Assembly: GCA_017656505.1 (NCBI GenBank)
Contig: JACDNU010000019.1
Span: forward strand, 1-42,357
Direction of reading: 5' to 3'
Origin: Archaeoglobus sp.
Lineage (GTDB): Archaea; Halobacteriota; Archaeoglobi; Archaeoglobales; Archaeoglobaceae
Length of the DNA stretch: 42,357 bases
Both the position numbers and the translations under genes were made by a program. Positions within the stretch are counted from its first letter, which is position 1; the number at the start of each line of letters is the position of its first letter. The notes under the pieces were generated by a model. It was not told where the DNA came from and searched no databases. It saw only the letters and a list, made by a program, of their open reading frames with translations. Below, piece after piece: positions 730-14,131 of this stretch.

Positions 730-2841
730 TTATACAGGGATCCTTAAAATAAAAACCGCCCCCCTAGGAGAGTTTTCCTCTACGGAAACACTTCCGCCAT
801 ATCTTTCCAAAACTTTTTTGACTATATAAAGCCCCAAACCCGTTTTACCCGACTCTCCATAGAAAAACCCTTCATCAAAAATCTTATCCCTCACGTCGGA
901 AGGAATACCAATACCAAAATCAGCCACCCTCACTTCACAGAACTCTCCGTCCTTTTTTATTTTAATTTCAATCTTATCTGTCTTCCCGTGAACTATTGCA
1001 TTTCTCACAAGATTTACAAAGACGCTTTTAAGCGCATCATCAGCTTTTACAATGCATTCGCCTTCTACTTTCCCGTCCACTCCATATTCAACCTTAAATT
1101 CGTTTAAAACTTCCCTTGCCACCTCATGAACCTTTGTTGGTTTCAAACCATCGCCCAAAATTAGATCTTCAAGGTCTCTCATCCTCTCGATGAGATCCAC
1201 GCTCCTTTCGAGGGCTGAATTTATGGTTGCTACCAGCTCTTTCGGACCCTCGTTATTTGATTCTAGTATATCTACCGCCCCAGCTATAACAAAGAGGTCA
1301 TTGGATATATCATGTCTTAGAATCTTGTTTATAAGCCTTAGGAGTTCAGTCCTCTCCCTGATACTTCTCTCCATTTTAATTCTCTCTGAAATATCCCTAG
1401 CAACCCCTATTCTTCCCACAACCTTTTCCCCATCGAAAAGATTTGTTACGTTAACCTCAACGGGAACTTTTGATCCATCTTTTTTGGAGATTTCCAAAGT
1501 AACGAGCTGAGGACTCTTGGTTCGGATACCTTCTTCAAAGATTTTCAGCAATTTCTCTCTGTTTTCAGGGGGTACGAGTTCGATGAAAGATTTTCCGAGC
1601 ATCTCATCTACGCTGTATCCTGTCTTGTCCTCAAACCTCTTGTTGAGGAAGGTTAATCTTCCCTTGAGATCCAGTGTGAATACCACATCATCCATCGTTT
1701 CAACGAGCGTTCTGTACTTCTCCTCACTTCTTCGGAGCTTTTCTTGCATCAGCATTTGATCTGTGTAATCTCTTACCGTCCCAAGAATCGCCGGCTCCCC
1801 CTGATAGTCTATTAAGCTGACTGAGAAGTTTGCATACCTTATCCTACCATCTTTCGTTATGATTCTTGCATCAAACGACTCTGGAACTTTTTCACCCCTA
1901 ATTCTCCTTTTTCCACTCTCTATCAGCCTTTGTCTGTCTTCAGGATGGATAAGTTCGAAAGGATTCATTGAATAAAGCTCTTCTTTCGTGTATCCGGTAA
2001 TTTTCGATGCCATGTCGTTTACAAGCACGAGTCGGTTGTCTTTGAGGATGTAGATTGCATCATGGCTCTTTTCCACCAGAGTCCTGTACTTTTCCTCCGA
2101 CTCCCTCAGCTCTCGTTCGATTTTTTCAGCCTCGGTAATGTCGTTTCCTATTAAAACAAGTATTTTCTCAGAATTGAGAACGATTTCACTTCCTTTCCAC
2201 CATATTTTTCTGTCTGAAAGGGAGGTAATAGTTTCTGCCAATCCTTTGCTATTTAACCTTTCAAAGAAACTGAGCATTTTACTCCTTTCCCCCTCAGGAA
2301 CTAAATCGAGAAGATCTCTAAATCTTTCAAACCTCCGCAATTTCCCGACGACTTCATCTGCCATTCTGTTTGAGAAAATAACCTTTCCTTTTCCGTCAAA
2401 AGCGAGAATAATGACCCTTGCGTTCTCTGCAATTCCACTGCTTATGGCTTTCTGTCTGAGCAGCTCGTGTTCCAAGTCTTTCCGCTTGCTTATATCTTCA
2501 ACTATATGCAAAAAATGCCTCTTCCCATCCAACTCAATTTCTCTAACCTTAACCCTTATCCACTTGCCAAGAGACTCCTCGAGGAATTCTCCAACGTCTC
2601 CCCTCCCTTCCTTTAAGGCTTTTACTTGGCAATGCGGAGGCGGTGAGAGGGTAGAATGAAAAATTTCGTAGCATTTTTTACCTTCAACCTCCCCAACAGC
2701 TCCAAAAACCTCCTTCATTCTCGTGTTTGCCTTCACAATGTTGAAATCCTCATCGATAACCGAAACTAGCTCATCGAGCATATCAAATAGCTCTAACCAG
2801 AGATTGGTTAATGTTTCCCAGTCAATCTCTCCCTTTTCCAT
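730..2841 (-). CDS. Multi-PAS sensor histidine kinase
   Basis: A 703-residue kinase with no obvious membrane segment, so probably a cytoplasmic sensor. Four PAS-type modules can be read in order: about residues 15-115 (with a Cys pair around KKCYE and PPPHC), 130-240, 247-370 and 374-495. The last two start with the EEKYRTLVE linker typical of PAS repeats. A HisKA-type dimerisation region follows, with phospho-acceptor His near residue 510 in LRHDISND. The ATPase domain shows the N box (NLVRNAIVHG, near 610), the G1 box (DFGIGI) and the G2 box (GKTGLGLYI). Such kinases autophosphorylate and pass phosphate to a response regulator, but no receiver-domain gene lies in this window. The signal sensed is unknown. 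It lies downstream of the dehydratase-type pair on the same strand, about 100 nt away, so co-regulation is possible but not shown. Confidence 0.93.
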   Translation of the reverse strand: MEKGEIDWETLTNLWLELFDMLDELVSVIDEDFNIVKANTRMKEVFGAVGEVEGKKCYEIFHSTLSPPPHCQVKALKEGRGDVGEFLEESLGKWIRVKVREIELDGKRHFLHIVEDISKRKDLEHELLRQKAISSGIAENARVIILAFDGKGKVIFSNRMADEVVGKLRRFERFRDLLDLVPEGERSKMLSFFERLNSKGLAETITSLSDRKIWWKGSEIVLNSEKILVLIGNDITEAEKIERELRESEEKYRTLVEKSHDAIYILKDNRLVLVNDMASKITGYTKEELYSMNPFELIHPEDRQRLIESGKRRIRGEKVPESFDARIITKDGRIRYANFSVSLIDYQGEPAILGTVRDYTDQMLMQEKLRRSEEKYRTLVETMDDVVFTLDLKGRLTFLNKRFEDKTGYSVDEMLGKSFIELVPPENREKLLKIFEEGIRTKSPQLVTLEISKKDGSKVPVEVNVTNLFDGEKVVGRIGVARDISERIKMERSIRERTELLRLINKILRHDISNDLFVIAGAVDILESNNEGPKELVATINSALERSVDLIERMRDLEDLILGDGLKPTKVHEVAREVLNEFKVEYGVDGKVEGECIVKADDALKSVFVNLVRNAIVHGKTDKIEIKIKKDGEFCEVRVADFGIGIPSDVRDKIFDEGFFYGESGKTGLGLYIVKKVLERYGGSVSVEENSPRGAVFILRIPV

Positions 2842-2942
2842 TCAAATCAGCTTTACGCTAATTTGTAAATATTAAAAGATTTGGAAAAGTCATCACATCG
2901 AAAAATGGGCATCTAAGAGCTAGTTTAGCTTTTAACCAAGAA

Positions 2943-4154
2943 CTAAATTGTCTCAAGAAAAGCCTCGAGTCTGGTTTCGACCTGAGATTCTGAAAAAGCC
3001 CTTGAATCTGTCATATCAGCTTCGATTATAACGGAAGGCACCTCTAGCATCCGCTGAATCTCATACTGGCCAAATGAGTAGGGCTTGCAGCTGCGATTGC
3101 TGTGGATAATCACTCCATCAACATCGAATTTATCGATCAGCTCGTTTATGGCATCAACCATGAGATCGAGACCAATGTTGAGATAGATGCCTATGTAGGT
3201 TTCGGCGAGACTCCTTATCGGGTTTTTCTTGTTTATGTCGATTAAAGCCGTCCAAGCATTTGTATAGGTGTCTGCTACCATACAGGCCTTTTTTTCTATG
3301 AAAAACTCTGAAAGCCACCTCATCCTGTACCATACAGGAATGTTGTCCCAGAGGAGTCTGTATTTCTCGTCGTCAACAGCAAAAATCCCCTGCTTTATCC
3401 TGCTTTCTAATTCCTGCCTCATCTCAGCATAGAAAATCGATGGAACCTCTGTTCCCCTCAAACAAACTATTGGAGCCATATTCAGAAAAGCATCAAAGCA
3501 AGTTAACGGGGAGGGCTTGTGTTTTCCCATTGAGAGGACGTCACCATAGCTTTGTACCCCCTCGATTGAAAGTCTAAGGACATTTTTAAATTTCCCTTCA
3601 TCGAATTCGGTATCGTAGGTTTTCTCCAGAAATCCAATGAAGTCATAGAGCTGGTTTTCCACATAATCTATGTAGCTCTCCTTAAGCTCCTTCCTAACAA
3701 AGGGAATATCGAGCAGAAAAACCGGAGCCTTATAGATTCTTCCAACCACCTCGTACCACTTCACAACCGTGTTACATATATTGTTGCATGCAAGGAGGAA
3801 GTCTGGCCTAGGCAACCCGCCAACAGGGCTTGTCTCGGAAAAGATACAGCCAAGATCACATCTTGCATAGGAGCATAAATCCTGAGAGAAACCTTTCTCT
3901 TCAGCAAAGGAGGAAAAATACGGACCCTGTTTGGAAGCCCCGATCAATGCTCCGTGGTTTTCTGGATAAACTGGATAAATGTCCATTGCATAAAGAAACT
4001 CAACGGGGGCGCCGCTTGTTACCCACCCAACTCTCTCAGCCTGTCTACCTTGGAGATAATACCCTAGCATTATATCCTGCATTCTTTTCGTTGCTTTTAA
4101 CTTCTTTATTTTCGATTTACTTGGTTTTCCTTCCGATTTCGTTTCTGATTCCAT
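2943..4154 (-). CDS. 2-hydroxyacyl-CoA dehydratase / benzoyl-CoA reductase-type subunit (BcrB/HgdA-like)
   Basis: Member of the 2-hydroxyglutaryl-CoA dehydratase D-component family (PF06050), about 403 residues. The family binds an iron-sulfur cluster and performs low-potential, radical-type reductions on CoA thioesters after being charged by an ATP-driven activator. Visible signatures are LCSYARCDLG, ACNNICNTVVKWYE and HSNRSCKPYSFGQYE, whose cysteines are candidate cluster ligands. I chose ATG 4154 because AGGTGG stands 5 nt upstream; the GTG at 4163 lies inside that site. The N-terminus has an extra Lys/Ser-rich stretch. The partner subunit is immediately upstream (4229-5260). The activator ATPase (BadF/HgdC type) is absent from the window. 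Substrate cannot be told from sequence: 2-hydroxyacyl-CoA or an aromatic acyl-CoA are both possible. Confidence 0.88.
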   Translation of the reverse strand: MESETKSEGKPSKSKIKKLKATKRMQDIMLGYYLQGRQAERVGWVTSGAPVEFLYAMDIYPVYPENHGALIGASKQGPYFSSFAEEKGFSQDLCSYARCDLGCIFSETSPVGGLPRPDFLLACNNICNTVVKWYEVVGRIYKAPVFLLDIPFVRKELKESYIDYVENQLYDFIGFLEKTYDTEFDEGKFKNVLRLSIEGVQSYGDVLSMGKHKPSPLTCFDAFLNMAPIVCLRGTEVPSIFYAEMRQELESRIKQGIFAVDDEKYRLLWDNIPVWYRMRWLSEFFIEKKACMVADTYTNAWTALIDINKKNPIRSLAETYIGIYLNIGLDLMVDAINELIDKFDVDGVIIHSNRSCKPYSFGQYEIQRMLEVPSVIIEADMTDSRAFSESQVETRLEAFLETI

Positions 4155-4228
4155 AAAGACCACCTAACCATTTAAGGGATTGAGGGTTTAGGGATTTAAG
4201 GATTAAGGGTTTTTAGGATTTTAAAGGT

Positions 4229-5260
4229 TTAGAGGGTCTCATAGAAGGCTTCAATCCTTGTCCTGAGCTGCTCTTCTGAAACGGGAAACTCAAGCTCCAG
4301 CAAGAGTGTTCTCTTCCCCATAGCCTCGAGTTTTTCTCTTAGCTGGGGATAATCGAAGAAATGTGGCTCGCAGAATTTCAGAAGCAGGAATATGACCGCA
4401 TCAACTTCTTTCGCTTTATTTAGCACATAGTTGAATCTTCGTTCGTTTTCGTAGTTCTTAGTTGGGCACGGAGCTTTCTGAAAGTACTTTTTAGCAAGGA
4501 AATCGATTGCTTCCTCAACCGAATTTTCAACCGAATTTTCAATTGAATTTATCCCAGCATATTCCACATCGAAGGTGAAAAATCTGCTGCCGGTGCAGAG
4601 ATCATCGATGACTGTGAAGCCTGAATCGCTAATGAGTCTCATTATCCCTGGAAAAGGACAAACACTTCCCGTTACAAGAGCTTTTCTCGATTTTAATCTC
4701 GACTTTAATTCCTCCTTCCTTCCTAATTCTTCCAATTTAGCCTTAGATTCTTCCAAAACCTCTATAGGGTTTTGGGTTTGAGCTTTTAGAAGGAGCTCAT
4801 AATCTGGCTGAACTTCAAATAACATATTCAACGTTTTCTCAAGCTCGCCATAGAGTTTTATTGAAGAGATCAATTCTTCTGCTTCGATTTCCTTACCACT
4901 CCAACCTTCAAGGGTTGACTTTAGATCGTAGAGCTCTCTTCTGAGAAAACCTATGCTCGATTCATGCAATTTCGTGGGAAATTCGAAGTTGTAAACCCTC
5001 ATGCTCGAGTTCTTCTCCCAGATGTCGGCGAGACGCATTAAAGTGTCACAGCTTCTCGTAAAAATGACACCATAGAAGTTGAGTTCTCCTTTCAGCATCC
5101 TTTCCAAACTTCCTCTCGCCTGAGAGCAACTGTAGCTCTGCAGATGAGAGTTCGCAAGACTTACTGGCTGATTTAGAGCTAAAATTCTAACAGGCTGGAA
5201 TCCAGCAGCCCATATAAGCTCTTTCGGTGTGAAAGTGCAGAGATAGCCAACTTTTTCCAT
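4229..5260 (-). CDS. 2-hydroxyacyl-CoA dehydratase / benzoyl-CoA reductase-type subunit (BcrC/HgdB-like)
   Basis: The second, smaller D-component subunit, about 343 residues. Family marks include GYLCTFTPKELIWAAGF at the N-terminus, SYSCSQARG, GVIFTRSCDTLMRLADIW, the SVCPFPG segment, DDLCTGSR and KFCEPHFFDYPQL near the end. The cysteines in these blocks are probable [4Fe-4S] ligands. Start at ATG 5260 is favoured because GGAGGA lies 6 nt upstream; an in-frame extension to 5299 would place that site inside the gene. Together with 2943-4154 it should form the heterodimeric catalytic component. A short triplicated NSIENSVENSVEE stretch comes from a 15-nt DNA repeat (about 4517-4552). The gene is transcribed first in the pair, divergently from the racemase gene. 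Confidence 0.88.
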   Translation of the reverse strand: MEKVGYLCTFTPKELIWAAGFQPVRILALNQPVSLANSHLQSYSCSQARGSLERMLKGELNFYGVIFTRSCDTLMRLADIWEKNSSMRVYNFEFPTKLHESSIGFLRRELYDLKSTLEGWSGKEIEAEELISSIKLYGELEKTLNMLFEVQPDYELLLKAQTQNPIEVLEESKAKLEELGRKEELKSRLKSRKALVTGSVCPFPGIMRLISDSGFTVIDDLCTGSRFFTFDVEYAGINSIENSVENSVEEAIDFLAKKYFQKAPCPTKNYENERRFNYVLNKAKEVDAVIFLLLKFCEPHFFDYPQLREKLEAMGKRTLLLELEFPVSEEQLRTRIEAFYETL

Positions 5261-5328
5261 GCTTCGTCCTCCAAAATTTCTGTTCATAGTATTTTTCATA
5301 GTTTTCAGAACTATCTATGCTTCGAACT

Positions 5329-5360
5329 GAATTTGATTGAATTTTTGATTGAATTTGATT
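5329..5360. repeat. Three short tandem repeats in a divergent promoter region
   Basis: Three consecutive copies of a GAATTTGATT unit occur at 5329-5338, 5339-5350 (two extra T) and 5351-5360. They sit between the divergent dehydratase subunit and racemase genes. They could be a regulator-binding repeat or simple replication slippage; nothing in the sequence decides this. Confidence 0.5.
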
Positions 5361-5402
5361 GTAAAAGGAAGATTATTAATGTTTTTTCAACCCACTTGTA
5401 TC

Positions 5403-6104
5403 ATGATGAAGACCATAGGACTCATAGGTGGGATGAGCTGGGAGTCAACACTCGAATACTACCGTCTGATTAACGAATTAGTTTCAGAAAAACTCGGAGA
5501 TTTGCACTCTGCAAAATGTCTGATTTACAGTTTTGATTTCGAAGAAATTGCAAGAGAGCAGGAAAAGGGGAACTGGAAGAGATTGGCAGAGATGCTCATC
5601 AACTCAGCGAAAAAATTGGAGCTAGCAGGAGCAGATTTCGTTTTGATTTGCACAAACACTATGCATAAGGTGGCAAAAGAGGTTCAAGAAAAAATTTCAA
5701 TTCAAGTAATAAGCATAATCGACGCAACAGCAGAGGAGATAAAGAAAAAAGGAATTAGTAGGGTTGGATTGCTAGGAACGCTCTTCACGATGGAGGATGG
5801 ATTTTACAGCCAGCAGCTCGCCGAACACAGGATCGAGACTCTAATTCCAGAAAAGCAAGACAGGGAATTCGTGCACCGCGTTATTTTCGATGAGCTGTGC
5901 AAAGGAATTTTCAAGGGGGAATCCAAACGAAGAATGGTTGAAATAATTGAAAAATTGAATAAAAAAGGAGCTGAAGGGGTCATTTTGGGCTGCACAGAAA
6001 TTCCATTACTAATAAAGCAAGAGGACGTTAGCATTCCGATTTTCGATACAACCTTTATACACTCTAAAAAGGCCGTTGAACTTGCATTGGAATTGAGTGA
6101 ATAA
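5403..6104 (+). CDS. Aspartate/glutamate racemase family protein
   Basis: About 233 residues from the ATG at 5403 (a second ATG follows directly at 5406). The upstream 18 codons of open frame are not typical of the family. The protein starts with IGLIGGMSWEST, the hallmark of the aspartate-racemase branch. It carries both catalytic cysteines: Cys83 in LICTNTMHK and Cys197 in LGCTEIPLL. These act as the two acid/base residues that invert the alpha carbon without cofactor. It probably interconverts L- and D-aspartate or a related amino acid in the cytoplasm, though substrate varies in this family. The next gene, for TrmO, starts about 40 nt downstream. Confidence 0.9.
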   Translation: MMKTIGLIGGMSWESTLEYYRLINELVSEKLGDLHSAKCLIYSFDFEEIAREQEKGNWKRLAEMLINSAKKLELAGADFVLICTNTMHKVAKEVQEKISIQVISIIDATAEEIKKKGISRVGLLGTLFTMEDGFYSQQLAEHRIETLIPEKQDREFVHRVIFDELCKGIFKGESKRRMVEIIEKLNKKGAEGVILGCTEIPLLIKQEDVSIPIFDTTFIHSKKAVELALELSE

Positions 6105-6141
6105 AACTAAAAGGAGATGGGAAAGGGTGGAAGGTGAAAGG

Positions 6142-6633
6142 ATGGAGACCATGGAGATCGTTTTAAGGCCAATAGGCATAATTCGGTCACCTTTCAAAAA
6201 ACCAAAGGGAACGCCTATTCAGCCCCCGGCAGCCAAAGGCGTGAGGGGAACTGTCGAAATTTTTCCTGAGTACGGTGAGGGCTTAAGGGATTTGGATGGA
6301 TTCTCCCACATCATCCTGCTCTACTATTTCCATTTATCAGGTAAACCCTCTTTGCTCGTTAAGCCCTTTATGGACGATGAGAAACATGGAGTTTTTGCAA
6401 CCAGAGCTCCAAGCAGACCGAATCCCATAGGGCTTTCTGTTGTTCGCTTGCTTTCAATAGAGGGAAACAAACTCTATGTTGAAGATTTGGACGTGGTCGA
6501 TGGAACGCCTTTACTGGATATAAAGCCCTACGTTCCTGAGTTCGACGCAAGGAAAGATGTAAGAAGAGGGTGGCTCGAGAAAAGCATAACCAGAGTCAGA
6601 GAGTTCAAGGACGATGGGAGGTTCTTGAGGTGA
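6142..6633 (+). CDS. trmO: tRNA (N6-threonylcarbamoyl-A37)-N6-methyltransferase family, TrmO
   Basis: About 163 residues, all of it the YaeB/TrmO beta-barrel SAM-binding fold. Recognisable blocks are the IGIIRSPF opening, DLDGFSHIILLYYFH, GVFATRAPSRPNPIGLS and LDVVDGTPLLDIKPYVPEFD. In bacteria TrmO methylates t6A37 of threonine tRNA; archaeal homologues are assigned by similarity. The start at 6142 is preferred because GGTGAAAGG stands immediately upstream; an ATG at 6151 is also possible. The frame is open back to a GTG at 6097 that overlaps the racemase stop, so translational coupling cannot be excluded. Confidence 0.9.
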   Translation: METMEIVLRPIGIIRSPFKKPKGTPIQPPAAKGVRGTVEIFPEYGEGLRDLDGFSHIILLYYFHLSGKPSLLVKPFMDDEKHGVFATRAPSRPNPIGLSVVRLLSIEGNKLYVEDLDVVDGTPLLDIKPYVPEFDARKDVRRGWLEKSITRVREFKDDGRFLR

Positions 6634-6688
6634 CATGAAAGGGTAAGAAAAGGACATTAAGGACATTAAAAGAATGGAAAAAGGTAAT

Positions 6689-6698
6689 TTTATATAAA
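6689..6698 (+). promoter_or_regulatory. Archaeal TATA box for the DsrE-family gene
   Basis: TTTATATAAA-type element about 30 nt before the GTG start of the next gene, preceded by a purine-rich stretch (GGAAAAAGG) that fits a BRE. It places the transcription start close to 6715-6720, giving a very short leader. Confidence 0.6.
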
Positions 6699-6720
6699 TC
6701 AAAGGCATAGAGGAATACCG

Positions 6721-7086
6721 GTGATTGAGATGGAGAAGCTTCTTGTGGTCTTAAATAACGGGTTGGATAATCCAACAAGGGCTACAAGGGCTTTCCAGAT
6801 GGCAAAGATTGCAGCTGAGAAGGGAATAGATGTTATAGTATTCTTAGTGGATGACGCTGTCTTTCTTGCTAAAAAGGGGATGGCTGAGCATGTAAAAGCT
6901 CCCACAGGAGATGAGCTGAAAAGCTATCTCGATTTTCTACTTGAAAAGAAGGTCCCTCTTTACGTTTGCAAACCATGTGCAGCAACAAGGCAAATTAAGG
7001 AAGAAGAGCTAGTTGAAACGGCAAAAATTGAAACTGGCTACACCCTGATAGATCTGACGATGGAGAGAAAGGTTCTTTGTTTCTGA
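6721..7086 (+). CDS. DsrE-family small sulfur-relay-like protein
   Basis: A 121-residue DsrE/DsrF-like fold. Family traits are the N-terminal strand LLVVLNNGLDNPTRATRAF, the middle block IVFLVDDAVFLAKKG, and the CxxC motif VCKPCAATR near residue 90. The CxxC cysteines are the likely persulfide or redox site; relatives carry sulfur or act in sulfur metabolism, but no partner gene lies nearby. The start is read as GTG 6721 because GAGG is 7 nt upstream; an ATG at 6730 would be 16 nt from it. A strong TATA box precedes it and a T-rich tract follows, so it is probably a single-gene transcript. Confidence 0.85.
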   Translation: MIEMEKLLVVLNNGLDNPTRATRAFQMAKIAAEKGIDVIVFLVDDAVFLAKKGMAEHVKAPTGDELKSYLDFLLEKKVPLYVCKPCAATRQIKEEELVETAKIETGYTLIDLTMERKVLCF

Positions 7087-7726: not shown

Positions 7727-8767
7727 TCAGTAAAGCCAGCAAGCAACCTCATGATCGCTACCAACCTTCTTAAGTTCGGGTTCTTTCTGACTGCAAATTT
7801 CCCTAGCGAAAGGACATCGGGGATGAAATCTACAGCCAGAGGGTGGATTAATTGGGCTTGGAGGCTCACCTTTTACAACCAATTTCTCCTTCCTTTTCTC
7901 GATCTCCGGATCTGGGATCGGAATGGCAGAGAAAAGAGCCTTTGTGTAAGGATGTAGCGGCTCCTCAAAAATTCCATCGGAATTGCCGACTTCAACGAGT
8001 TTGCCTAAATACATTACCCCCAGCCTGTGGCTCATGTACTTAACTATAGCAAGATCGTGGCTTATGAAAAGATAGGTAAGATCCAGCTCTCCCTGGATGT
8101 CTTTCAGGGTATTCAGAATGTTTGCTTGGACTGAAACGTCTAAAGCTGAAGTAGGCTCATCAAGAACAACGAATTCGGGTTTTAAGGAAAGAATTCTCGC
8201 AAGGGCTATCCTCTGCCTCTGTCCACCACTGAATTCGTGGGGGTATCGATACAGATGTCCCTCATTAAGACCCACTTTTTCCAGCAGATCGATTACAAAA
8301 GCTTCGGGATCGTGCACATCTATGCCGTGATGATTCACCGGCTCCATAACAATCTGAAAAACGGTTTGTCTGGGGTTTAGAGATGAGTATGGGTCCTGAA
8401 ACATTATCTGGGCCTTTCTCCTAAACCAGTCCATATCTTTCTTTTTAAATTTGGTGATATCCCTTCCATCGTAAATGATCTGTCCATCCGTCGGTTCAAT
8501 CAGCCTAAGAATCGTTCTGCCCACGGTGGTTTTACCACATCCACTCTCTCCAACCAAACCGAAGGTTTCTCCCTTTCTTATTTCAAACGTAACATTATCA
8601 ACGGCCTTAACGTAACCTTTAGTAAAGAACAAACCCTTCAGAGGAAAATACTTCTTGAGATTTCTTACCTCTAGAAGGTTCGAGCTAGAGCTAAAGCCAT
8701 TGCTAAAGCTACTCATTCCCTGCATCCCTTCCATCATCTCACCCGTGGCACGCAACGAAGTGTCCAT
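7727..8767 (-). CDS. Oligopeptide/dipeptide ABC transporter ATPase (OppF/DppF)
   Basis: A 346-residue ABC ATPase that powers the peptide transporter from the cytoplasmic face. Walker A is GESGCGKT (73-80), the Q loop is in MFQDPYSSLNP, the signature is FSGGQRQR (about 179-186), Walker B is VVLDEP (about 200-205), and the H-loop His is in FISHDLA. The end carries the oligopeptide-type extension with three cysteines (CRFHPRCPFAREIC). Its start at 8767 has GGAGGAGGT upstream and overlaps the ATPase gene before it by 29 nt. An alternative ATG at 8737, right after that gene's stop, would remove ten variable residues. Last gene of the five-gene operon. Confidence 0.94.
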   Translation of the reverse strand: MDTSLRATGEMMEGMQGMSSFSNGFSSSSNLLEVRNLKKYFPLKGLFFTKGYVKAVDNVTFEIRKGETFGLVGESGCGKTTVGRTILRLIEPTDGQIIYDGRDITKFKKKDMDWFRRKAQIMFQDPYSSLNPRQTVFQIVMEPVNHHGIDVHDPEAFVIDLLEKVGLNEGHLYRYPHEFSGGQRQRIALARILSLKPEFVVLDEPTSALDVSVQANILNTLKDIQGELDLTYLFISHDLAIVKYMSHRLGVMYLGKLVEVGNSDGIFEEPLHPYTKALFSAIPIPDPEIEKRKEKLVVKGEPPSPINPPSGCRFHPRCPFAREICSQKEPELKKVGSDHEVACWLY

Positions 8768-9719
8768 CTTCGACCTCCTCCAGTTCAGGAACCTTGCTTC
8801 TGCAGATTTCAGTCGCCTGATTGCATCTCGGATTAAATCTGCAACCAGAAGGTGGGTTTATCAAGCTTGGAACTGTGCCTGGAATCGCTTCCAACCTCTC
8901 TATTTTTACAAGTGGATTTGGAACGGCTTTAAGGAGTCCTCTCGTATAGGGATGAATCGGTTTTTTGAAGATCGTAAAAACATCTGCCAGTTCGACTATT
9001 TTTCCAGCATACATCACGGCAACCCTATCGGCCATGTCTGCAACCACACCCATGTCATGAGTTATAAGCAAAACGGTTGCGCCGTATCTCTCCTTCATCT
9101 CCTTTATGAGATTGAGAATTTGAGCCTGAACTGTCACGTCCAAAGCGGTTGTTGGCTCATCGGCAATTAATATCCTAGGATTATTTGCGATCCCTATACC
9201 TATTGTTACCCTCTGTTTCATACCCCCGCTTAGCTCATGCGGGTAGTTGCTCACCCTCTTTTCCGGATCAGGCATTAAAACAGTTCTCAGAATATCAACA
9301 GCTCTTTTTACTCCTTCTTTTATGCTCTTAACCATTTTATGAACAAATAAAGCCTCAGAAACCTGATATCCTATTGAGTAAAGGGGATCAAGAGAAGACT
9401 GGGGGTCCTGAAATATGTAAGCGATCTCCTTACCCCTATATTCCCTTATCTCCTCTTCACCGAGCTTTAGCAAATCGATTGTTTCTCCATCCCTGTGATA
9501 ATAGACCTCACCCTCCACGATTCTTCCCGGAGACTCGATCAGTTGTGTAAGAGCTCTAGCAGTAACGGATTTGCCACAGCCAGTTTCGCCTACTAAAGCA
9601 AAGGTTTCGCCCTTGTACACATCGAAAGAGACTTTTTCAATCGCTTTAACAACTCCAGCGTAAGTATAGAAATGTACTGTGAGATCTTTAACTTCAAGGA
9701 TCTTTTCTGTCCCTATCAT
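8739..9719 (-). CDS. Oligopeptide/dipeptide ABC transporter ATPase (OppD/DppD)
   Basis: A 326-residue ABC ATPase, the second motor subunit of the transporter. Walker A is GETGCGKS (44-51), the Q loop is in IFQDPQSSLDP, the signature is LSGGMKQR, Walker B is ILIADEP, and the H loop is LLITHDM. The C-terminal oligopeptide extension has CRFNPRC and further cysteines. GGAGG lies upstream of ATG 9719. The start overlaps the stop of the permease gene by 4 nt (ATGA type), indicating translational coupling. The partner ATPase follows with a 29-nt overlap. Confidence 0.95.
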   Translation of the reverse strand: MIGTEKILEVKDLTVHFYTYAGVVKAIEKVSFDVYKGETFALVGETGCGKSVTARALTQLIESPGRIVEGEVYYHRDGETIDLLKLGEEEIREYRGKEIAYIFQDPQSSLDPLYSIGYQVSEALFVHKMVKSIKEGVKRAVDILRTVLMPDPEKRVSNYPHELSGGMKQRVTIGIGIANNPRILIADEPTTALDVTVQAQILNLIKEMKERYGATVLLITHDMGVVADMADRVAVMYAGKIVELADVFTIFKKPIHPYTRGLLKAVPNPLVKIERLEAIPGTVPSLINPPSGCRFNPRCNQATEICRSKVPELEEVEDGHFVACHG

Positions 9720-10843
9720 CTCCTCTCCTCCTTCGGTTTTTTCCGTTTTACCTTGAATTCGATGCTCCTTCTAAGCTTCGGATCTAAAACATCCCTGAGC
9801 GAGTCTCCGAGCAGGTTCCAGCCAAGCACGTCGAAAAGCACGATAGCTCCCGGAAAGATTATCAACCACCACGCTTTGGGGAAGAATTGCGAACCATCGT
9901 ATACTATCCTCCCCCAGTCAGCTATTGGTGGAGTTGCACCCAGCCCAAGAAAACTCAGTCCAGCCTCAGTCAGCACAACACTGCCAAAATCTAGGGTGAC
10001 ATAAACCAGAATTGGTCCTATGATGTTTGGAAGAATGTGTTTTGCCATTATTTTAGCCGACGAGAGACCTATTGCCTTTGCCGATTCAACATATAGGGAT
10101 TCCCTTTCCGTAAGAGTTGAACCTCTCGTAATTCTCGCATACCCTGGCCACCAGACTATTGCCATTGCAATCATTACAGCAAGCAGCCTGCTTAGATTGC
10201 CTGCTTCCCTCGCATCGAGGGCAAAAAGCCAGAGTAAGATCTGCTGGAGATATATATAATTGTTAATCAAGTACGAGATCCTTTCCGGCAGCACAGCAGC
10301 AAACGCAATCGCGAGGATTAAAGGTGGGAAAGCCAGAAACATGTCCGTTACACGCATAATTAGCTCGTCAATTTTGCCGCCGAAGTATCCTGCAACAAGT
10401 CCGAGGAGAATCCCTAAAGGAACGCCCATGAGAATGACTATCACAGAAATAACAAGCGATGTTCTCGCTCCTTGGAGAAGGAGGCTGACGAGATCTCTAC
10501 CAAAGTGATCTGCTCCAAGCAGGAAAAACTGCCCAGGTGGGGAAAGATACGTGTCGCCGTTATCGAATATTGGGAAGTAGTTATACTTGTAGGGGGCAAA
10601 ATAAGGTCCGAAAATCCCAAGAAATACGAAAATCGTTACGAGAAAAAGTCCAATAACACCCGGAGGGGATCTGTTCAAAGCATAGAACATCAGCTTCCAC
10701 TCAGCTATCCTTGATCTGTTCTTTTCCCTCCATCCCTTTCTAACGGCCGAAATTATAGAGACCAGAAACTCAATAAATGAATCCGAGATTCTATCAAGGA
10801 TGCTCCTCTGGTATTCCTCGCCCAATTGTTCTACTTCCTGCAT
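9716..10843 (-). CDS. Peptide ABC transporter permease (OppC/DppC)
   Basis: About 375 residues with six predicted membrane spans. The N-terminal arm is long and charged (about 60 residues) before the first span (GVIGLFLVTIFVFLGIFG). The family's cytoplasmic coupling loop is visible as TERESLYVESAKAIGLSSAKIMAKHILPN. A second conserved region is VVLTEAGLSFLGLG. The start at ATG 10843 is preferred: GGTGATC, a perfect match to the archaeal 16S 3' end, lies just upstream. An ATG seven codons earlier (10864) has no such site. Forms the channel with the permease encoded just upstream (10899-11900). Confidence 0.94.
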   Translation of the reverse strand: MQEVEQLGEEYQRSILDRISDSFIEFLVSIISAVRKGWREKNRSRIAEWKLMFYALNRSPPGVIGLFLVTIFVFLGIFGPYFAPYKYNYFPIFDNGDTYLSPPGQFFLLGADHFGRDLVSLLLQGARTSLVISVIVILMGVPLGILLGLVAGYFGGKIDELIMRVTDMFLAFPPLILAIAFAAVLPERISYLINNYIYLQQILLWLFALDAREAGNLSRLLAVMIAMAIVWWPGYARITRGSTLTERESLYVESAKAIGLSSAKIMAKHILPNIIGPILVYVTLDFGSVVLTEAGLSFLGLGATPPIADWGRIVYDGSQFFPKAWWLIIFPGAIVLFDVLGWNLLGDSLRDVLDPKLRRSIEFKVKRKKPKEERR

Positions 10844-10898
10844 TTGATCACCTTCTAGTACCATTTAGCTTTCATCTTCTACTCTTCTACTCTTTTGT

Positions 10899-11900
10899 TC
10901 AATATCTCACCCTCGGATCGATGACTGCATAGAAAATATCAACTATGAGGTTCGCGATAACGTAAACCAAAGCGAAAATGAAGGTTACTGCAACTATTGC
11001 CGGGAAATCGAGAGTTGTGATCGAAAATATTGCATACAGTCCCATTCCCGGTAGGCCAAACACGGTTTCTGTTATAGGAGCGCCGCTTAGCAATCCTCCA
11101 AACTGGAGTCCGAGAACTGTTATGATTGGAACCAAAGAGTTCTTCATCGCATGCCTGTATATGCGGAGCTTCTGAACACCTTTTGCCTTTAAGAATTCAA
11201 TGTAATCCCCACCTATTGCCTCGAGGAATGAGTTTCTTACGAATCTAGCAACAACTCCTGCTCCCATAAATCCCAAAACAAAGCCAGGAAGCCAGAATCT
11301 AGCAACATGCTGCCTGAATAGCTCGAGATTTCCAGTCAGAAGTGAATCGATAACTGGAATGTGAGTTATAACTATATCTGGAGAGGGAGGCACTCCAGCA
11401 AGGTTGATTATTCTGATATGAACAAAGAAAACATAAATGAGAATGTAACCGAGCCAGAAAACCGGTGTTGAGACCCCAATTAGAGCAAATATCCTCACAA
11501 ATGTGTCGATGGCAGAATCTCTTTTAAGTGCCGAAACCAATCCTAAAGGTATGCCTATCAGCAAAACGAAGAAATATGCAAACAAAGTGAGCTGGAATGT
11601 GACGGGAAAACGCTTACCAACATCATCCAAAACCGGATTAGAAGTCCTTGGGTCGATTATTTCATTCTTCATCAATCCTGTGATCAAGAACAGATACTGC
11701 TCGTACCACGGATCGTCCATATGGTACTTTTCTCTGATAATCTCGATTGCTTTCTGGCTTGCTTTCTCTCCTCCAGCCCACGCTCTTGCCGGATCAGCGG
11801 GTATTAGGTACGCGATTGCGAAGACGATCAGCGTTATTCCGATTATTGTGGGTATGAACGTCAGTATACGTCTCGCTAGGAATTTCTTCAGCTCAGCCAC
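10899..11900 (-). CDS. Peptide ABC transporter permease (OppB/DppB)
   Basis: A 333-residue permease. It has an N-terminal span (ILTFIPTIIGITLIVFAIAY) followed by five more, the large external loop after span 1 typical of DppB, and the coupling motif FLEAIGGDYIEFLKAKGVQKLRIYRHAMKNS in three consecutive blocks. The end (DIFYAVIDPRVRY) is the common family terminus. The GTG start at 11900 is supported by GAGGTGAG three bases upstream. Lies about 100 nt after the binding-protein gene, with a T-rich stretch and a short repeat in between, so the binding protein may be expressed above the rest. Confidence 0.95.
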   Translation of the reverse strand: MAELKKFLARRILTFIPTIIGITLIVFAIAYLIPADPARAWAGGEKASQKAIEIIREKYHMDDPWYEQYLFLITGLMKNEIIDPRTSNPVLDDVGKRFPVTFQLTLFAYFFVLLIGIPLGLVSALKRDSAIDTFVRIFALIGVSTPVFWLGYILIYVFFVHIRIINLAGVPPSPDIVITHIPVIDSLLTGNLELFRQHVARFWLPGFVLGFMGAGVVARFVRNSFLEAIGGDYIEFLKAKGVQKLRIYRHAMKNSLVPIITVLGLQFGGLLSGAPITETVFGLPGMGLYAIFSITTLDFPAIVAVTFIFALVYVIANLIVDIFYAVIDPRVRY

Positions 11901-11960
11901 TGGCTCACCTCAGGACTCAGATTGCAGATTTGTATAAATAGCTTTCCGAGATTGATGGAG

Positions 11961-11977
11961 AAATAAAAAACAAAAAA
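11961..11977 (-). terminator. T-rich tract between the binding-protein and permease genes
   Basis: Read on the minus strand, two runs of six T separated by one G follow the binding-protein stop by roughly 25-40 nt. In archaea such tracts give partial or full termination. Partial termination here would make the binding protein more abundant than the membrane parts, as is usual for ABC importers. Confidence 0.45.
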
Positions 11978-11991
11978 TTGTTTAAAATTTT

Positions 11992-12013
11992 ATTCTGTAA
12001 GTCATTCTGTAAG
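11992..12013. repeat. 10-bp direct repeat duplicating the end of the binding-protein gene
   Basis: ATTCTGTAAG occurs at 11992-12001 and again at 12004-12013. On the coding strand the last codons (Leu-Thr-Glu-stop) are repeated in frame directly after the real stop. Probably slippage; if the first stop were suppressed, only four residues would be added. Confidence 0.6.
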
Positions 12014-14131
12014 CACATTCACCTCTTTGAATGCAGTTGCGCCGTAGTAGAGAGGTCCAACCCAGTTATCAGTGTCCAAGTAATCTGGTACCCAGCCGAT
12101 CGTGTAGTAGTCGTACTGTCCATGCTCACCTTTGCTCAAGTATACAGGCCACTCAAGGCTTGTTACGGTGCACTTGAAGCCAAGCTGGCTCCATGTGTTC
12201 TGTAGCAAAGCTGAAATCTTTTCTCGGGCAGAGTTACCCGAGTTGTATGTTAGCTCAATCGTGTATTTGGTTGGATCAATGCCTGCTTCTTTGAGAAGCT
12301 GCTTCGCTTTTGCCATGTCAAAGGTGTACTTGTTTATGCCATATTCTGTGTATCCGGGCCAGCCAATTGGTACGGCTGCATAGTTCCTCTCCATGTTTCC
12401 TGAGTATACTTGCTGGATGATCTGGTCATAGGGCACCGCATAAGCTAATGCCTGTCTGACCTTCGGGTTGTTGAATGGTTCCTTGTAAGTGTTGAAGACA
12501 CCGTACGTGATTACAGGCTGGAGCAGATCAGTCTTCACAACTGAGTGGAATCCCTGGAACTCAAGTCCTTTAACATCATTGATTCTTTCTGGTGGTGCTG
12601 CAACATAGTCAACTGTTCCGGTCTGGAAGAGGTTTATTCTCGAGACTGCGTCGTTGTTAATCACCCAGATTACAGTTTCATGCTTGGCTTTTGAAGTATC
12701 GGCATACATCTCATCCCAAAGTGCTTTACCCCAGTAGTATGGGTTCATTTTTGCAACGATGTAGCTGTTTTCTTCGTAGTCAACCACACAATACGGGCCA
12801 GTGCAAACTGGCTTTTGATGCATCAACTGATGGGTTGCGTCCTCCTCACCTTCGCTTACATAAGCTTCCCAAGCAGACGGGTTCTTGCCGTTGTTGGAAG
12901 CATCCAAAGCTTCCTGATACTTATCACCGAGTAGATACTCCATTGGAAGCACTGAGAGGAACGGATCGGTTAGAATGCCAAGAATTGGTGCATATGGTTC
13001 TGGAAGTACGAGCTTGTAGACTCCAGCCGTTTTACCACTGTAGCCGAACATCGACAGCAGCTCATCCATTGATTTAACTTCTCCAGACTTTCCTTCAAAC
13101 TCGGCGTACAATCCTCCTTTAGCAATAACACTTGCGAACTCATCCTCTGTAAGAGGAACAGATTTCTCTAAATCAGTGAAGCCGAGCATCCAGCTGACAC
13201 TATGGCCTATCCTGTTAACCCTCCAGAAACTGAAGGCAACATCGGTAGCATCGATCGGATAGGTTTTATCGTTCCATGGATCATAAGCTACGACATCACC
13301 CCTAATTACAAAGTACCACTCAGTACCCTCTTTGTTATGCGCCCAAGCAACCGCTAGATCTGGTGATACTTTCTCTGTCTCTTCCTTCCAGTAAGTCACG
13401 AGTGTGTCTCCGATCTGGTGCCAGATCTCCCAGCCAAAGGTCTCATAGGTTGTAGCAGGATCAAAAGATTCGGGCCAACCAATCGTTCCAATTACGAGAG
13501 TATTTGCATCGTTCTTGTAGTCTTTTATTCCGATGTCAACCGTCGGCGCGTTTGGTTTCTCCCAGACCAAGTCATATCTCTCCGTAAACGTTGGGTGGTA
13601 GTATCTTCCCTCAACCCACTCCCAGTAGACTCTCATCATCCTGTTTTGTCCAAAGACGATTAAGGGAGCTTCTTTGTTCGCAATTATGTACATCGCCTTG
13701 AAAAGCTCAGTTCTTATTTCTGGATTCGTTTCAACTCTGGCCGCCTTTACCAAAGCGTCAAACTCGGTATTCCTCCAGAAAGCTGGATTTATCGCTCCAA
13801 ATCCCTGTCCTTCCTCCATGAGTTTTTCGATGGATTCGGTATTTTCCTTATCGACAACGTAAGTCACCTTTATGACCTTCTTGTTTGTTGGAATCGATAC
13901 GGATTCAATCTTCCCTTTCTCTCCCACCACAACTACTGAGGTGTCCGTTTCAATTACCTTCCCCGGTATTGGTGTGGCGGTTGGAGTGGGCTTTGGTGTT
14001 GGCGTTGGTGTCGCTGCTGGAGTTGCGGTAGGTGCGGGAGTCGGTGTGGGCTTTACCTGTTGCTGTGCACAGCCAGCCAATGAAATCGCTAATAGCCCAA
14101 TCACGATCAAGTAGAACAATTTTCTTTTCAT
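12002..14131 (-). CDS. Peptide-binding lipoprotein of ABC transporter, apparently circularly permuted
   Basis: A 709-residue solute-binding protein (SBP_bac_5 / DppA family) that captures substrate outside the cell. Residues 1-21 are a lipoprotein signal with lipobox LAGC (Cys21), and residues 27-57 a Thr/Pro/Ala spacer. Residues about 108-190 match the segment that normally ends this family: NTEFDALVKAARVETNPE, then ANKEAPLIVF, then VYWEWVEGRYY. The usual mature N-terminus begins only at about 211 (TLVIGTIGWPESFDPATT). The protein stops at GWVPDYLDTDNWVGPLYYG plus 14 residues, just where the missing C-terminal segment should follow. No leftover coding sequence lies downstream. So the order of the fold is permuted (C-segment, N-lobe, rest). 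Operon mates are the two permeases and two ATPases. The exact peptide or sugar substrate is unknown. Confidence 0.93.
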   Translation of the reverse strand: MKRKLFYLIVIGLLAISLAGCAQQQVKPTPTPAPTATPAATPTPTPKPTPTATPIPGKVIETDTSVVVVGEKGKIESVSIPTNKKVIKVTYVVDKENTESIEKLMEEGQGFGAINPAFWRNTEFDALVKAARVETNPEIRTELFKAMYIIANKEAPLIVFGQNRMMRVYWEWVEGRYYHPTFTERYDLVWEKPNAPTVDIGIKDYKNDANTLVIGTIGWPESFDPATTYETFGWEIWHQIGDTLVTYWKEETEKVSPDLAVAWAHNKEGTEWYFVIRGDVVAYDPWNDKTYPIDATDVAFSFWRVNRIGHSVSWMLGFTDLEKSVPLTEDEFASVIAKGGLYAEFEGKSGEVKSMDELLSMFGYSGKTAGVYKLVLPEPYAPILGILTDPFLSVLPMEYLLGDKYQEALDASNNGKNPSAWEAYVSEGEEDATHQLMHQKPVCTGPYCVVDYEENSYIVAKMNPYYWGKALWDEMYADTSKAKHETVIWVINNDAVSRINLFQTGTVDYVAAPPERINDVKGLEFQGFHSVVKTDLLQPVITYGVFNTYKEPFNNPKVRQALAYAVPYDQIIQQVYSGNMERNYAAVPIGWPGYTEYGINKYTFDMAKAKQLLKEAGIDPTKYTIELTYNSGNSAREKISALLQNTWSQLGFKCTVTSLEWPVYLSKGEHGQYDYYTIGWVPDYLDTDNWVGPLYYGATAFKEVNVLTE

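Follow-up and report, generated by a model that had tools for sequence, protein, structure and literature searches.

In the family-5 solute-binding protein (SBP) DppA, both chain ends lie in lobe I, Arg355 is the carboxylate-binding residue, and mature Asp408 (Asp436) presumably binds the amino end of the peptide. Among binding proteins, the only precedent that we found for a natural circular permutation belongs to another fold class: TpMglB-2 (Tp0684) of Treponema pallidum is a naturally permuted, tethered, ligand-binding SBP, and its authors speculated that tethering was the reason for the permutation (PMC4990184). In other proteins, such as DNA methyltransferases and saposin/swaposin, permutation by duplication has been described, with partly duplicated intermediates predicted (PMC3320104). 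We found no description of a permuted family-5 SBP in the open literature, subscription papers being outside the scope of the search, and two recent permutation-detection papers did not mention solute-binding or oligopeptide-binding proteins.

The window, which is the whole 42,357-nucleotide stretch of Archaeoglobus DNA analyzed here, encodes a complete ABC importer of the Dpp/Opp type together with its family-5 binding protein, which is lipid-anchored and presumably functional. We conclude with high confidence that this protein is a natural circular permutant.

Segment order of the binding protein

The permuted gene comes first in an operon (7727–14131), with two permease and then two ATPase genes behind it; all of them are complete and share one strand. 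The features are listed with their basis; L308 is a locus of a distant archaeon.

7727..8767, minus strand: ATPase, DppF/OppF type (ORF; syntenic with L308)
8739..9719, minus strand: ATPase, DppD/OppD type (ORF; syntenic with L308)
9716..10864, minus strand: permease, DppC/OppC type (ORF; syntenic with L308)
10899..11900, minus strand: permease, DppB/OppB type, same operon (ORF; syntenic with L308)
12002..14131, minus strand: circularly permuted family-5 (DppA/OppA-type) solute-binding protein gene, 709 aa (ORF, Pfam, phmmer, hhalign)
12005..12043, minus strand: new C-terminal tail, residues 697–709, with a predicted strand at 701–708 (sequence and AF2 model)
12044..13513, minus strand: family N-terminus through the GWVPDYLDTDNW block, residues 207–696 (Pfam, phmmer, rotation)
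12083..12085, minus strand: Asp683, aligned with DppA Asp436 (mature Asp408) (alignments)
13514..13558, minus strand: new linker between the old C- and N-termini, residues 192–206 (phmmer, hhalign/rotation)
13559..13783, minus strand: displaced family C-terminal block, residues 117–191 (phmmer, hhalign)
13790..13960, minus strand: family-specific insert, residues 58–114 (comparison with relatives opened elsewhere)
13961..14068, minus strand: Thr/Pro-rich tether, residues 22–57 (sequence read)
14069..14131, minus strand: signal peptide and lipobox (LAGC), residues 1–21, lipid anchor expected on Cys21 (sequence read)

Pfam SBP_bac_5 (PF00496) matched residues 254–699 with 214.3 bits against a cut-off of 32.4. 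The best matches of the protein were family-5 proteins, and it did not qualify as a TpMglB-2-like Type Ic binding protein, for which an MglB-like fold of Type I/cluster B is required. Comparison by phmmer with the solved DppA (5f1q) gave three pieces in permuted order: query residues 209–305 and 433–696 aligned with chain positions 28–125 and 199–449, and residues 115–187 aligned with positions 458–530, so that the last DppA block comes first in the window protein. Since this last piece was weak alone (12 bits), the C-terminal block (C-block) was assessed by orthologue alignment and hhalign comparison, using residues 95–205 of 50 orthologues as the query and 84 family proteins (585 columns) as the template. 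Residues 117–191 were placed at canonical columns 507–581 of 585 (probability 95.4, E 1.9e-8), the next-best placement of the segment having a probability of 0.2%, and the score of 59.9 stood against 16.6 for reversed columns and 21.8 for the best of 40 column shuffles. Some permuted haloarchaeal sequences, few in number, were part of the first template; once every known permutant had been taken out, the outcome was the same (probability 95.7). Because the insert and the long linker of the window protein blunt the doubled-profile test, hhalign and rotation were used for this protein.

Rotation of the chain (residues 205–709 followed by 108–204) produced one continuous domain (h48–531) of 258.6 bits, compared with 230 bits for the best single domain of the unrotated chain and at most 174 bits for wrong rotations. 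The rotated protein covered 470 of the 489 profile columns without overlap, with nothing duplicated or missing. The whole family-5 profile, including the C-terminal helices, is present and the canonical N-to-C order is absent; the window protein is homologous to the SBP_bac_5 family but a topological variant of it, and it fits a natural circular permutant in which all segments occur once, rotated, with the old termini joined by the linker. No extra C-terminal block follows the GWVPDYLDTDNW block: the stop codon occupies 12002–12004, and 11900 is already the start of the permease gene. These data support the preliminary description, which had read the gene as a natural circular permutation and whose sequence claims all hold. 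As it had proposed, the family C-terminal block (117–191) precedes the N-terminus (about residue 207), and the chain ends shortly after the GWVPDYLDTDNW block with only a 13-residue tail; in the score comparison that it had suggested, the rotated order outscores the native one. Neither outcome that would have refuted it occurred: the permease gene, and no additional C-terminal segment, comes next after the stop, and hhalign placed the displaced block only at the family C-terminus. A canonical paralogue is present in the same genome (G000:C16, L001), together with many other canonical homologues.

We also considered residues ~58–114 as a shrunken or trimmed duplicate of residues 620–700. This was rejected, as the segment is an insert that is internal in relatives opened elsewhere: in L070, L199/L307, and L076, the counterpart of residues 57–114 of the window protein is flanked within the chain by the GW..DY block on one side and the C-block on the other. 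A short DATADDISSMMSKA-like piece, which the window protein lacks, joins the insert region in L070 and L199/L307.

Permuted relatives and their cut points

The same order was found in orthologues from five genomes of the same genus (84–91% identity) and from one genome of another genus (G026; 77%), those of G013 and G026 each lying on a single contig close to 2 Mb in length. In the Thermococci-containing group, reached from a Thermococci metagenome-assembled genome (MAG; the genome of L070), 60 of 115 genomes had a full-length junction match, many of them on single contigs, and nearly all loci read out had the cut of the window protein (h451|459). The search among Archaeoglobales and Thermococci homologues that had been suggested beforehand was thus positive in Archaeoglobaceae and in Thermococci. 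One permuted SBP gene of the Thermococci group (L217, G664:C1; ORFs 1039–2523 and 2274–3125, plus strand) was split by a frameshift, either real or a sequencing error.

Four orders were observed within the window protein's own subfamily: besides those with the cut of the window protein, members were opened at h232|233 (L070, L199, and L208), at about h285 (L075), and at about h370 (L076 and L169). Neither a canonical-order member nor a duplication intermediate was seen in this subfamily. At another locus (L242, G473:C251; ORFs 142–2121 and 2125–4212, plus strand), two permuted SBP genes stand side by side, each with its opening near h232.

Permutants elsewhere were searched for with a junction profile (C-block followed by N-terminus) and an order analysis using canonical profiles, and each of their chains accounted for the profile a single time, the pieces hardly overlapping. 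The cut was at h370 in the A. fulgidus-type Archaeoglobus proteins (G001, G004, and G007) and in G031, which has a signal peptide and a C-terminal transmembrane segment (TM); at h370, h300, and h232 in genomes of the phylum of L076; at h300 in L173; and at h104|109 in Wolframiiraptor. Haloarchaeal permutants were opened at h456, with others at about h350 and h148|157. Two bacterial permutants were found, both on plasmids, in Subdoligranulum (L313; h142|157) and Nitratireductor (L314; h373|376). Three further bacterial tblastn spans (L312, L315, and L316) were canonical on inspection, and no junction-spanning match was found among the matches listed for 25 genomes of a bacterial (Desulfurella-type) phylum. 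Judged from the alignments, the SBP fold is opened at about seven sites. The permutation proposed for the window gene was confirmed; its recurrence with several cut points had been missed in the preliminary description.

Gains of the doubled over the single profile were 267–273 bits for the A. fulgidus type, 122 bits for G031, 105 bits for L147, and 85 bits for Wolframiiraptor. In haloarchaea, at least 63 of 242 genomes had a junction-spanning match among the matches listed, and all 30 junction loci read out were permuted. For the h456 form, the displaced C-block alone was moderately supported by hhalign (probability 46, E 2e-4), so that this group rests more on the junction profile. A haloarchaeal protein of 975 aa (L306, G826:C1:2518500–2525500; ORF 1864–4788, plus strand) begins with a region resembling a Ser/Thr kinase and continues as a permuted SBP, an arrangement suggestive of a receptor kinase that senses through a binding protein.

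Route, tethering, and function

Both halves of the A. fulgidus-type permutant are 83–87% identical to canonical proteins of G002, G003, G005, and G006, which belong to the same genus group according to the search tables. In the DNA, the leader is similar and, behind it, two cleanly bounded blocks of 944 and 474 bases (about 80%) have exchanged places. The new termini lie only in the loop between the helix ..KKAGY and the strand LKxELWW. A 69-row tree of the re-ordered sequences, which was built by a quick method, is unrooted, and contains some long branches, required at least 14 changes of cut state. The differently cut proteins of G001 and Wolframiiraptor were sisters inside a canonical clade, L173 was nested in a canonical clade, and L070 and L075 were nested in the clade of the window protein.

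In the window protein the old ends are joined by the short linker, and the chain is opened in a lobe II loop after the GW-x-x-DY-x-D block; with this opening, the lipid anchor and the Thr/Pro tether attach to lobe II. The permutation may have arisen when the gene was duplicated in tandem and then lost its superfluous first and last halves, the leader and tether staying in front. Two relatives are possible intermediates as far as their sequences go: L154 is a complete tandem double SBP, the middle of which aligns continuously, across both copies, with the permuted L235, and L305 (G617:C1; ORF 3193–6306, minus strand; 1038 aa, partly masked) comprises a full SBP, an N-terminal half-copy, and a C-terminal TM. 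Such relatives fit permutation by duplication and lend indirect support to the duplication and trimming suggested in the preliminary description, but for the window gene itself this route is inferred and was not shown. The long ORFs L181, L236, and L244 were set aside as intermediates because they run into contig ends. Among other long proteins, a 1026-aa polypeptide (L310, G136:C18; ORF 10309–13386, plus strand) has two complete SBP_bac_5 copies, and an 1818-aa protein (L239, G548:C25; ORF 1488–6941, plus strand) has two SBP domains in tandem, with some 700 residues besides.

Fission into two genes with re-fusion in the other order, or transposition of a half-gene behind the leader, is not excluded and remains possible, although we consider it rather unlikely. 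The halves of the A. fulgidus type, swapped cleanly with the leader still in front, would suit such events, as would the transposase-like gene adjoining the permuted gene in G007; however, some SBPs are tandem or partly duplicated (L154, L239, and L305), and no separate half-genes were noticed. The transposase-like gene (L035, G007:C7; 6302–7333, minus strand) is absent beside the G001 gene.

Whatever the route, the permutation might have been selected because it shifted the point of membrane tethering to a different face of the protein and thereby tuned docking on the permeases. We put this forward only tentatively. In the archaeal permutants whose ends were read, a lipobox or TM at the N-terminus, or a TM at the C-terminus, adjoins the new opening, and the same idea has been proposed for TpMglB-2 (PMC4990184). 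On the other hand, the permuted L314 of a Gram-negative bacterium carries a plain signal peptide without an anchor that could be recognized, and neutral drift accounts equally well for the spread of cut points. That family-5 SBPs undergo frequent repeated permutation at favoured sites (about h370, h455, h150, and h232), including re-permutation of chains already permuted, because relocation of the anchor is adaptive in tethered systems is likewise a conjecture that we hold with considerable doubt.

The permuted gene is the sole binding-protein gene of the intact five-gene ABC operon, and the identical gene order occurs at L308, in a single-contig genome of 1,738,505 bases. Asp683, the counterpart of the DppA residue taken to bind the peptide amino end, is invariant among nine aligned relatives of the window protein. 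DppA Arg383 (mature Arg355) had no clear equivalent in the phmmer alignment with 5f1q, which suggested that the ligand may not be a dipeptide; one PDB title among the Foldseek matches (DppA R383D+D436R) indicates a DppABCDF structure in which both residues are mutated. Peptide binding is plausible, and binding of peptides or a similar ligand is inferred in the absence of assay data on ligand binding and transport. The order could be real and the protein nevertheless a non-transport relative, such as a sensor or decoy, as the kinase-fused haloarchaeal SBP and the lack of conservation of the carboxylate-binding Arg might hint; we regard this as improbable for the only SBP gene of an intact permease/ATPase operon that is syntenic in a distant archaeon, given the strong conservation that includes Asp683.

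Normal closure of the permuted fold is also an inference, without structure data. Built from nine sequences, the AF2 model of the window protein was weak (mean pLDDT 63, pTM 0.54), and the Foldseek search with it ranked DppA first at a TM of only about 0.35–0.5, so that closure was not shown. The A. fulgidus-type permutant, modeled from only two sequences, reached a pLDDT of 36, too low to be of use. When the junction profile was run against the PDB, the 60 best chains all had their best match elsewhere than across the junction.

An assembly or annotation artefact, through a chimeric contig or the merging of two adjacent genes, can practically be discarded: many relatives are MAGs and the long ORFs L181, L236, and L244 run off contig ends, but the window gene is a single open frame with one leader and every piece present exactly once, and its order recurs in six Archaeoglobaceae genomes and the junction in 60 Thermococci-group genomes, independent assemblies that include single-contig genomes (G013, G026, G656, and others).

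Comparison with known systems

The window protein resembles DppA/OppA-type family-5 (cluster C, PF00496) proteins in having all parts of the fold by sequence, the GW-x-x-DY block with the ligand-amine Asp, a lipid leader, and an operon with two permeases and two ATPases. It differs from them in its circularly permuted order, the extra 57-residue insert, and the lack of a clear Arg355 equivalent.

Natural circular permutation itself is already known; the unusual feature is the many cut points within one family. Natural circular permutations are usually reported as single, old cases, and this family gives a series comprising a young permutant among canonical relatives, re-permutation in one orthologous subfamily, and intermediate-like forms, so that how permutation proceeds and what it costs can be tested directly. 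Across archaea, and in a few bacteria, evolution has repeatedly re-ordered one and the same transporter part. Family models of fixed order capture only part of each permuted SBP, though about half of the Thermococci-group genomes that were checked encode such a protein.

SBPs show the products, and also the partly duplicated intermediates, that are predicted for permutation by duplication (PMC3320104). They are different proteins from the DNA methyltransferases and saposins, and one SBP permutant has very close canonical relatives, at 83–87% identity. TpMglB-2 has a Type I/cluster B glucose-binding fold in one permuted topology, whereas the window protein belongs to family 5 and to a series of cut points.
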